Shown piece by piece: positions 6,759 to 10,295 of a stretch of DNA of 34,767 nucleotides. Both the position numbers and the translations under genes were made by a program. A model generated the notes under the pieces. That model saw only the letters and a list, made by a program, of their open reading frames with translations. It was not told where the DNA came from and did no database searches. The number at the start of each line of letters is the position of its first letter. Positions within the stretch are counted from its first letter, which is position 1. This DNA is from an uncultured Desulfuromonadales bacterium (lineage in GTDB: Bacteria; Desulfobacterota; Desulfuromonadia; Geobacterales; CAIOGM01), in the NCBI GenBank assembly GCA_903929485.1, contig CAIYUY010000187.1, positions 1 through 34,767 of the forward strand, in the 5' to 3' direction.

Positions 6759-6789
6759 TGCATTCCTCTCTTATAAACCCTTAAAAACT

Positions 6790-6880
6790 GTGAAAGGTGA
6801 ATGGTGAAAGATGAACATAATCAAGAGTCTTTATTCACCATTCACCATTCACTTTTCACATTTCACTTTTCACTTTTCAC
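6790..6880. repeat. Heptad GTGAANG repeats in inverted arrangement
   Basis: The mlaF-mlaD spacer begins with GTGAAAG, GTGAATG, GTGAAAG on the plus strand. After a short unique stretch it continues with the opposite orientation, TTCACCATTCAC and several TTTCAC/TTTTCAC units, ending at the mlaF stop codon. The arms can fold as an imperfect hairpin. The same seven-base unit occurs at 15364-15438 and in short form near 7690. Confidence 0.75.
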
Positions 6881-7626: not shown

Positions 7627-7706
7627 GGGTTAACTCCTCTGTTCGTAGCAACAGGGTTACTATATGCGAAAAGTTACTGGAGGGCAATGGTGAAGGGTGA
7701 AAACGT

Positions 7707-7729
7707 AGGGGCGCGGCTTGCCGCGCCCT
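7707..7729. repeat. Small palindrome, AGGGGCG family
   Basis: GGGCGCGGC (7709-7717) is separated by two bases from GCCGCGCCC (7720-7728), preceded by GTAG. It belongs to the same GTAGGGGCG...CGCCC family as the palindromes at 18341 and 27223. It lies between divergent mlaF and the helicase gene, just after a short GTGAAGG run. It could be an insertion-type repeat rather than a terminator, since no gene ends here. Confidence 0.7.
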
Positions 7730-7784
7730 TGTTGAAGAAAAGACAAGTTGTAATCAACACCATAAAAACGTATCCTCTCGTCCC

Positions 7785-10295
7785 ATGAAACGCTATTTCA
7801 CCGAACATGTGCAAAACCGGCTCCGGGAAGAGATACTGGACGCCGGCGGCAATGAAGTCTTTTTCCTGGGGCGGACCGACGAGGCGAAGATCGTCATCGA
7901 CGTGGAGCCGCTGGCCCGGGGAAACCGGGACGCCGTGGCCGCCATCATGATCACCGCCGCCTACGGCGATGTGGTCATCCATAACCATCCCTCCGGTCTC
8001 CTGACCCCCTCGGAAGCGGATATCGGGGTCTCTTCCCTGTTCGGCAACCGCGGGGTCGGTTTCTACCTCATCAACAACGATGTCACAAGCTGCTTCCAGA
8101 GTGTCCCCCCCTTTGCCCGGAAGGAGCTCATCCCCCTCTCCTACCCCGAGATCCAGGGGCTCTTCGGCCCGGAAGGGACCATCGCCCAAAAACTCCACGG
8201 CTATGAATTCCGGGAGGAACAGGTACGGATGTGCTTTGCCGTGGCCGAGGCGTTTAACAGCGGCCGGATCGCCGTCATCGAGGCGGGCACGGGAACCGGC
8301 AAGTCGCTGGCCTACCTCCTCCCCGCCATCTTCTGGGCGCTGCGCAACAAGGAGCGGGTCGTCGTCTCCACCAACACCATCAATCTCCAGGAACAGCTGA
8401 TCAGGAAGGATCTCCCCTTTCTGCAATCCATCATCAAGGACAAATTCCGGGCGGTCCTGGTCAAGGGGAGGAGCAACTACCTCTGCCTCCGGAAGCTGGA
8501 AGGGATCAAGGTTGAGCCGGCCCTCTTTCCCGACGAGCATGCCACGGAGATGCAGGCGATCATTGAGTGGAGCGCCAAGAGCGCCGAGGGGTGCCGCAGC
8601 GACATGAGTGTCCCCCCCAGGGACGAGCTCTGGGAGGAGGTGGCCTGCGAGGCAGACCAGTGCGGCCGGGTCAAATGTCCCTGGTATACCAAATGCTTCT
8701 TCTATTCCGCCCGGCGGGAAGCAGCCGGAGCCGACCTCCTGGTGGTGAACCATGCCCTCCTCATGGCCGATGTGGCGGTCCGCTCCGAGACCGGCTACGA
8801 ATCAACGGCGGTGCTCCCCCCTTTTTCCCGGCTCATCTTCGACGAGGGACACCATCTGGAGGATATCGCCACCAGCTTCCTCTCCAGCCAGGTCTCCCGC
8901 TACGGACTCCTCAAGACCCTGGCGGGGCTGCAACATCCCCGGAGAGCCCAGAAGGGGCTCCTCCCCCGACTGTCGGCTCTTCTCTCCCGCGACCTCCCCG
9001 ACAGCATGGAAGGACTCTTCCATGAAGTTGCCGGCATCGTGGAGACAATCCTCATCCCCGGGCGGCTGATCCTGGCCGACGCCGTCACCTCCACCATGGA
9101 CGGCTTGGCCCTGGGGCTCCTGGAGCAGCTGCGGGTCCCCAAGGAGCGCCACGGCGAGTACAAGCTCCGGCTTATCCCGGCGCTCTACGGCACCGGCTTC
9201 TGGAAGGAAACCGAGGAACGGACAGAGGAGCTGGCGCGGCGGATGAACGACTATGTGGCGGCCCTGGGGCGGCTCTTCAAATCCTGCGACAAGATACCGG
9301 AGGAGCTCCGGGAGAAATTCTCCGGCCTCCTCACCGACCTGAAGGGGGTTCGCGGAAGACTGGAGGTGACAGTGGAGAACCTGGCCGCCTTCACCCTGCG
9401 GGGAGAGGAGTCCTGCCGCTGGTTTGAGCTGAAGAGCGGCGGGCGGGGGATGACGCTGAAGCTCTGCGTCTCGCCGCTGGAGATCGCGGCGGCCTTCAAG
9501 GGGACGGTGCTGGACCGGTTCCGCACCGTGGTGGTGACTTCGGCCACCCTGGCCGTGGGGGAGAGCTTCTCCTTCCTCAAAAAACGGACAGGGATCGCCC
9601 TGGCGGCCCCGGAGCGGGTGACGGAACTCCTCCTCCCCTCCCCCTTCGACTACCAGCGGCAGGCCTTCGTGGGAATTCCCTCGGACATCGCCGAACCGAC
9701 CTCCTCCGGCTTCGACGCGATTCTTGAGCCGCACATTTTGGAGGCGCTCCTGGTCTCCCAGGGGAGAGCCTTCGTCCTCTTCACCTCCTACGATCTCCTC
9801 CGCCGGGTCTACGACCGGCTGGCCGTCCGCCTGGCTGCCGAGGGGCTTACCACCCTGAAGCAGGGGGAGATGAACCGGAGCCTCCTCCTTTCCCGCTTTC
9901 GGAAGGAGAAGAACGCGGTTCTCTTCGGTACCGATTCGTTCTGGGAAGGGGTAGATGTGAAGGGAAAGGCTCTGGAATTGGTGATCATCACCCGGCTCCC
10001 CTTCCGGGTCCCCACCGAACCGGTTCTGGAGGCTCGCTCGGAGCATATCGCGGCGGGAGGGGGGGATCCGTTCCTGGAGTACACCGTCCCCCAGGCGGTG
10101 ATCAAGTTCAAGCAGGGGTTCGGCCGGCTGATCAGGAGCCGCGACGACCGGGGGGGGGTCCTGCTCCTGGACAGCCGCGTCCTTTCCAAGAACTACGGCG
10201 GAACCTTTCTCCGCTCTCTCCCCCCGGTGGAGATCATCAGCGCCCCCGGGGCGGAGGTCTATCGCCGGATGCGGGAGTTCTTCAAGGAGTCGTGA
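7785..10295 (+). CDS. JAMM/MPN metallopeptidase-like domain fused to a DinG/XPD-family helicase
   Basis: An 836-residue fusion. The N-terminal ~110 residues form a JAB/MPN domain with the complete JAMM zinc signature HNHPSGLLTPSEAD (His66, His68, Ser76, Asp79) and a candidate Glu at residue 24, as in RadC-related proteins. A superfamily 2 DinG/XPD helicase follows: Walker A EAGTGTGKS (166-174), four cysteines at 288, 293, 298 and 304 suited to a 4Fe-4S cluster, the DEGH box (353-356), VVTSATL, and the C-terminal motif VLFGTDSFWEGVD. DinG resolves R-loops and forked DNA. No clear ribosome binding site precedes the ATG at 7785, so the start is less certain than the frame. It stands alone on the plus strand. 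A run of nine G bases at 10150-10158 lies inside the frame, which is intact. Confidence 0.9.
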   Translation: MKRYFTEHVQNRLREEILDAGGNEVFFLGRTDEAKIVIDVEPLARGNRDAVAAIMITAAYGDVVIHNHPSGLLTPSEADIGVSSLFGNRGVGFYLINNDVTSCFQSVPPFARKELIPLSYPEIQGLFGPEGTIAQKLHGYEFREEQVRMCFAVAEAFNSGRIAVIEAGTGTGKSLAYLLPAIFWALRNKERVVVSTNTINLQEQLIRKDLPFLQSIIKDKFRAVLVKGRSNYLCLRKLEGIKVEPALFPDEHATEMQAIIEWSAKSAEGCRSDMSVPPRDELWEEVACEADQCGRVKCPWYTKCFFYSARREAAGADLLVVNHALLMADVAVRSETGYESTAVLPPFSRLIFDEGHHLEDIATSFLSSQVSRYGLLKTLAGLQHPRRAQKGLLPRLSALLSRDLPDSMEGLFHEVAGIVETILIPGRLILADAVTSTMDGLALGLLEQLRVPKERHGEYKLRLIPALYGTGFWKETEERTEELARRMNDYVAALGRLFKSCDKIPEELREKFSGLLTDLKGVRGRLEVTVENLAAFTLRGEESCRWFELKSGGRGMTLKLCVSPLEIAAAFKGTVLDRFRTVVVTSATLAVGESFSFLKKRTGIALAAPERVTELLLPSPFDYQRQAFVGIPSDIAEPTSSGFDAILEPHILEALLVSQGRAFVLFTSYDLLRRVYDRLAVRLAAEGLTTLKQGEMNRSLLLSRFRKEKNAVLFGTDSFWEGVDVKGKALELVIITRLPFRVPTEPVLEARSEHIAAGGGDPFLEYTVPQAVIKFKQGFGRLIRSRDDRGGVLLLDSRVLSKNYGGTFLRSLPPVEIISAPGAEVYRRMREFFKES

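Follow-up and report, generated by a model that had tools for sequence, protein, structure and literature searches.

The window, that is, the whole stretch of 34,767 nucleotides that was analysed, belongs to an assembly of 5.36 Mb in 369 contigs (99.25% complete) and carries on its forward strand an open reading frame of 836 aa, whose ATG start is common to its homologues (MKRYF/MQKYF...) and whose product is the sole DinG/YoaA-family match in its own assembly (at E 0.001). Among the best 80 of 501 confirmed relatives, the nearest named locus is that of an uncultured Geobacteraceae MAG (L091), with a JAB domain that is 98% identical. The gene and its parts are arranged as follows:

7785..10295, + strand: RadC-like DinG gene, 836 aa (ORF translation, Pfam, NCBIfam)
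7785..8108, + strand: JAB (RadC-type) domain, residues 1-108 (PF04002, JAB-alone model, fold matches)
7854..7856, + strand: Glu24, candidate catalytic Glu, in NEVFF (identical in 110/110 rows)
7980..7988, + strand: His66-Asn67-His68, predicted metal ligands (identical in 110/110 rows)
8010..8021, + strand: Ser76-x-x-Asp79 of the JAMM motif (S76 and D79 in 110/110 rows)
8109..8189, + strand: variable linker, residues 109-135 (dN/dS raised in most pairs over residues 111-135)
8280..8306, + strand: helicase motif I (Walker A), EAGTGTGKS, residues 166-174 (translation)
8484..8696, + strand: Fe-S region with C234, C293, C298 and C304, and an extra C288 (alignment)
8841..8855, + strand: helicase motif II, DEGHH, residues 353-357 (translation, alignment)
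9738..10226, + strand: Helicase_C_2 domain, residues 652-814 (Pfam)

The fusion of a JAMM domain to a Fe-S helicase, claimed in the sequence-only reading of this DNA, is present, the 836-aa protein matching PF04002, DEAD, ResIII and Helicase_C_2 (E 9.7e-48) in a single ORF. The HxH-x7-S-x2-D signature and the candidate Glu of that reading are also found in the translation, as H66-N-H68, x7, S76, x2 and D79, with Glu24 in GNEVFF, and so are its four cluster-type cysteines: C234, C298 and C304 are conserved in 26/26 aligned rows and C293 in 25/26, with the fifth cysteine, C288, in 23/26. An N-terminal JAB and a complete DinG/YoaA-type Fe-S helicase are encoded in one ORF, and the motif is not a chance occurrence.

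The helicase part has the features of the DinG/XPD superfamily, with motifs I and II, the Fe-S cysteines and Helicase_C_2, and is predicted to be a 5'-to-3' Fe-S DNA helicase. NCBIfam models rank YoaA first (equivalog NF053712, 578.6 bits, below its curated cut-off, 680), with DinG models next and, as a weak match, RadC. The AlphaFold2 model of the whole protein has a pLDDT of 83.6, with its minimum at residues 291-297, beside the Fe-S cysteines. Its best fold match is E. coli DinG (6fwr; Z 29.3, rmsd 5.5, 657 aligned), followed by CRISPR-associated DinG, S. aureus DinG and XPD chains, the S. aureus DinG 8zef giving Z 22.5, rmsd 5.3 and 640 aligned against the motor. The window protein therefore resembles E. 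coli YoaA and DinG as a four-Cys Fe-S helicase, with YoaA as best family score and DinG as best fold match, but it differs from them by its extra JAB, its sub-cut-off YoaA score and the lack of a detectable HolC. E. coli YoaA is described as working with HolC (PMC8378479, PMC9826845); a HolC match (PF04364) was found in 0/56 relatives, the own genome included, and the E. coli and Caulobacter controls matched.

By its sequence, the N-terminal domain is a RadC-type JAB and not one of the classical peptidase type. The PF04002 (RadC-like JAB) match covers residues 8-82 (E 1.9e-5, 25 bits for a cut-off of 22.1), and isolated N-terminal domains match the same profile in 22/22 related rows. The Prok-JAB profile PF14464 is matched weakly by 11 of these 22 domains (best E 0.0072), and gave no match with the window protein's own N-terminal domain. 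The similarity to RadC itself is partial: the NCBIfam RadC equivalog (PRK00024) scores 21.8 bits, below its curated cut-off of 180, and the PF04002 match spans profile positions 5-87 of 121, so that the C-terminal DHIIIG block of the RadC JAB, present as DHxIxG in 6/6 canonical RadC rows, is unmatched. When profiles were compared with six canonical RadC domains, the 28 columns that aligned (97.0%) all surrounded the motif, which thus supplies most of the similarity. The window protein hence shares with RadC/YicR (PF04002, PRK00024, 2qlc) the JAB core and the HNHPSG...PS..D motif, but has neither the RadC N-terminal half nor a matched DHIIIG block. Matches of the RadC-type JAB were also observed in open frames of 2776, 2831 and 3325 aa (G050:C2:323610, G022:C25:17135 and G054:C1:2775587), which are perhaps giant multidomain proteins.

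Modelled alone with AlphaFold2 (pLDDT 90.7), the N-terminal domain has a predicted JAB/MPN fold. Foldseek places RadC 2qlc on top (E 3.7e-6), before CSN5, a proteasome lid subunit, bacterial BubCD and AF2198. A second structural aligner gives Z 9.7 for two Rpn11 structures (4owp, rmsd 2.7, 104 aligned; 4ocl, rmsd 8.1, 109 aligned) and Z 8.7 for RadC 2qlc (rmsd 3.4, 103 aligned). As Rpn11 thereby outranks RadC by one Z unit, the predicted fold cannot separate a nuclease from a peptidase. Like the JAMM/MPN+ peptidases, the domain combines HxH-x7-S-x2-D and an upstream Glu with the predicted JAB/MPN fold; identity to the Rpn11, PfJAMM1 and CSN5 rows shown is, on the other hand, 13-17%, and by sequence the window JAB is closer to RadC.

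The five residues E24, H66, H68, S76 and D79 are unchanged in 50/50 full-length rows of the order, the own one included; six pieces of hits, from the five loci L055, L060, L050 (two pieces), L059 and L057, were left out of this set as broken, partial or JAB-less. They are equally kept in 110/110 rows (own included) spanning other classes, among them MAGs labelled Acidobacteria, Dadabacteria and KSB1, in a set where some genes are present twice and from which pieces starting after residue 15, such as L140, were left out. I17, R45, G46, N67, P69 and P75 are also invariant in these 110 rows. In the pooled sets, 127/129 distinct N-termini have E/H/H/S/D, the other two being those of G112 (GRREE) and G527 (JAB unrecognisable); near-copies were kept in this count, L189 without JAB is included, and G042 is not among the 129. 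The relatives taken from the contig search (the best 80 of 501 confirmed) lean to intact motifs, as the search patterns contained part of the motif. Helicase-only searches and one further search, which do not lean this way, brought G042, G112 and G527 to light or confirmed them; of the 10 hits of the further search, one (G576) is a fragment without N-terminus.

Selection was estimated on six pairs formed by the window protein and its counterparts in three congeners: for the JAB, dN/dS is 0.03-0.12, versus 0.07-0.20 for the two helicase parts, and that of the linker (residues 111-135; same six pairs, four sequences) is mostly above both, up to 0.56. A decayed JAB in the window protein is ruled out, its five residues being intact and the domain being under purifying selection. 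The earlier view that the domain is not decayed was exposed to the possibility that its key residues vary among homologues, and the outcome was the opposite in all three sets. That it may be catalytic was proposed as well; the conservation in 127/129 N-termini argues for catalysis, whereas G112, which keeps a JAB without any of the five residues, speaks against pure catalysis. The sequence-only interpretation as a whole is partly supported.

Three irregular genes were met among the relatives. The JAB region of L140, which from the pattern of matches would be the G468 gene (G468:C20), is interrupted, its profile matches 1-74 and 65-124 lying apart; this would be a duplication or an assembly fault. 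L141 and L143 come from MAGs with the label Acidobacteria gp11, and in each of them the helicase gene is split into two frames, with different break points.

The fusion is ordinary in its order. The helicase part, used alone as query, is found in 134/141 genomes of the order and in all 103 of high quality (at least 90% complete, at most 5% contaminated), and JAB profile matches are found in 130/141 and 101/103, respectively. Four genomes have the helicase without a JAB match; coordinates show that the hits of G483, G517 and G521 run off the contig end, and G042 is a real absence. In a phylum-wide draw of 395 evenly sampled genomes, 36 helicases are set apart from all others (E at most 4.3e-143; next 1.2e-72), 19 of them from other classes. 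A JAB is detected by profile search in 34 of these 36 genomes, on another contig in the case of G310; the two without a match are G112 and G424, the latter running off the contig end. Within the same class, eight genomes from outside the order were also found to have the JAB.

In a midpoint-rooted tree of 49 rows, built on the helicase part (residues 136-620) with the JAB excluded, 35/35 JAB-bearing helicases lie on one side of a branch supported at 100/100, versus 11 non-JAB DinGs. The 11 outgroup rows all come from one phylum and are weak hits (of 12 fetched, the incomplete L264 was omitted). Warnings of the tree program concern long branches, namely L156, G112, L084 and several outgroups, and an uneven composition in nine rows. 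The topology fits a single acquisition followed by mostly vertical descent, a picture that an outgroup wider than one phylum could change. A recent or mobile fusion is unsupported, the proteins forming one clade that is near-universal in the order. In viral contigs, 73 loci were hit, all by partial matches that reach E 1e-6 at best and cover no more than 78 residues.

Three genes depart from the common architecture. In G112 (L175, 1745-4243), a colinear JAB is still recognised by the JAB profile (12.1 bits, positions 6-104), with the changes E24G, H66R, H68R, S76E and D79E; the branch length in the helicase tree is 1.08, and a canonical radC lies elsewhere, on contig C3, not adjacent. G527, from a genome that is 74% complete, keeps the helicase with no recognisable JAB ahead of it. 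G112 and G527 share a clade of nine rows (100/100) with seven intact rows of their class, and this clade lies within the wider JAB clade (97/93). In G042 (L055, 1933-4900), the helicase sequence starts only with the linker, 55 bp after the end of a complete radC (radC 1933-2625, helicase ATG 2681; a candidate junction on one assembled contig). Its downstream gene resembles, by eye, a gene near the intact JAB-DinG of G014, and its helicase groups among rows of its genus. As the tree nests them within JAB-bearing rows, all three exceptions look secondary. G112 keeps its JAB without the five residues, and the domain can therefore persist without them; this dead JAB is either still of some use without catalysis or in the course of decay, and it does not outweigh the conservation seen elsewhere.

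Replacement of radC by the JAB-DinG gene is unsupported: in 56/56 relatives the best PF04002 match is at most 1.5e-33, and the best value of a JAB-DinG is, among the matches listed for these relatives, weaker (2.1e-8). One genome (G551, 95% complete) has a JAB-DinG without any other PF04002 match, and the best match of G012 is a broken radC. In this one-contig genome (L179), whose JAB-DinG is intact, radC appears to be split by an insert of ~16.5 kb (contig positions 652389-652649 and 669154-669306; one side fetched), with radC as insertion site.

The neighbourhood of the gene was also considered. When the flanking ORFs of 80 loci were clustered, shadow ORFs dominated the result and no operon partner stood out clearly. 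As to SOS control, the LexA-like pattern GGTTNNCNNNNGNNNACC has no site with at most 2 mismatches in intergenic 7627-7784, in a scan that is powerless because the window holds 117 matches versus 116 expected. The intergenic positions 7681-7752 contain a G+C-rich palindrome recurring at 24 places in the own genome (E 0.001, itself included), which looks like a dispersed REP-like element. At 6786-6863 lies an inverted repeat of TGAATGGTGAA type, with 30-nt arms (87%) and a related copy at 7681-7701.

The sequence-only reading had called the combined activity notable, which is weakened by the fact that the fusion is already in print: section 3.8 of Cheng 2025 (PMC11981726) names a 'RadC-like DinG', models the Desulfuromonas soudanensis member, reports conserved E, H, H and D and an absence of HolC, and states that no research had been done on this subgroup. 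The window protein agrees with this description in its RadC-like N-terminal domain, where one Glu, one Asp and two His are found, in its YoaA/DinG-like motor with the CCCC Fe-S motif, in the absence of HolC and, as modelled, in its C-terminal helix; no difference was found from the D. soudanensis member as described there. RadC fusions to DinG/RAD3-like helicases are also mentioned in PMC5512222. What the analysis adds is that the fusion is nearly universal in the order and falls into one clade, that its key residues withstand a test of conservation, and that there are natural cases of loss and decay.

As for RadC itself, print is divided. Aravind's group argues that the RadC clade lacks the groove for a ubiquitin tail and that nucleic acid is its more likely substrate (PMC5512222, PMC3482391); PMC3482391 relays the nuclease proposal for RadC, which is based on context and not on experiment. 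In PMC4725251, by contrast, E. coli RadC/YicR is called a putative JAMM deubiquitinase; in PMC11342252 the RadC-type JAB is listed among predicted effectors. In the open-access literature we found neither experiments on a RadC-like DinG nor a reported activity of any RadC-type JAB. A precedent for the architecture is provided by S. aureus DinG (ExoDinG, 8zef), described as having 3'-5' exonuclease and 5'-3' helicase activities for which joint action is proposed (PMC12345164): it has, like the window protein, an N-terminal metal-dependent domain ahead of the same motor, but this domain is a 3'-5' exonuclease where the window protein has a JAB.

The computation establishes the two domains, shows that the JAMM residues are intact and conserved, and places the fused helicases in a single clade. 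The reading that we favour, and to which we give about an even chance, is that of a RadC-like DinG in which a metal-dependent JAB hydrolase is coupled to a 5'-3' DNA helicase and acts on nucleic acid, not on a ubiquitin-like tail. The motor would load on single-stranded DNA and move 5' to 3', and the JAB would hydrolyse or trim nucleic acid at its metal site, be it a displaced or damaged strand or a blocked end, in a joint action like that proposed for S. aureus DinG and its N-terminal exonuclease. Zinc binding, catalysis and action of the JAB on nucleic acid unwound by the motor are all three what we infer. In the cell, the protein would be a vertically inherited repair helicase that does not need HolC. 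The preference for nucleic acid over peptide derives indirectly from the RadC-type sequence and from the ExoDinG precedent.

The JAB could alternatively be a true JAMM peptidase or isopeptidase that frees DNA-bound proteins in the path of the translocating helicase from a protein adduct or a small modifier. We regard this as possible but rather doubtful. The complete JAMM set is conserved, the fold matches extend to Rpn11, CSN5, PfJAMM1, bacterial BubCD and Ubl-deubiquitinase structures, and half of the related domains match Prok-JAB weakly; metalloproteases are moreover given as the topological neighbours of the RadC-like domain, with zinc modelled by that analogy (Cheng 2025, PMC11981726), and the deubiquitinase label of RadC/YicR (PMC4725251) points the same way. 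The domain nevertheless groups by sequence with RadC, where the groove for a ubiquitin tail is argued to be missing (PMC5512222, PMC3482391), and the crude clustering of flanking ORFs brought out no clear partner. The peptidase of the sequence-only reading is thus unsupported so far, even with print divided on RadC.

Somewhat less probable, and in our view unlikely, is a JAB that mainly serves as a binding or structural module, its residues holding a structural metal or a ligand without catalysis. The JAB/MPN fold is known to have given rise to MPN-minus domains that are catalytically dead. They offer a precedent for such a module, with which the colinear G112 domain changed at all five residues, and the helicases kept without JAB in G042 and G527, are in agreement. 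This would poorly explain why the five residues are kept in nearly all N-termini across several classes and record labels, and the long branch of G112 among seven JAMM-intact rows is as secondary decay predicts. The arrangement in G042 also suggests a more speculative and improbable scheme, in which RadC and DinG/YoaA helicases take part in one reaction, the window JAB being the RadC active site in cis and G042 the same machine split. If true, RadC would gain a partner and a testable substrate. No radC was found in the 74% complete genome of G527, though action in trans, if it held for every JAB-less case, would require one there.

Returning to the RadC-like DinG that we favour, the protein is real, conserved and ordinary for its lineage, and belongs to a subgroup that received its name in 2025. 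RadC-type JAB domains occur widely, and no biochemical function has been agreed on for them; in this protein, such a domain is joined to a motor that is known to have DNA as its class of substrate. Owing to its strict conservation and to its natural controls, namely one member with a dead domain and two JAB-less members, one of them beside radC, JAB-DinG is a good place to learn what RadC-type JAB domains do.
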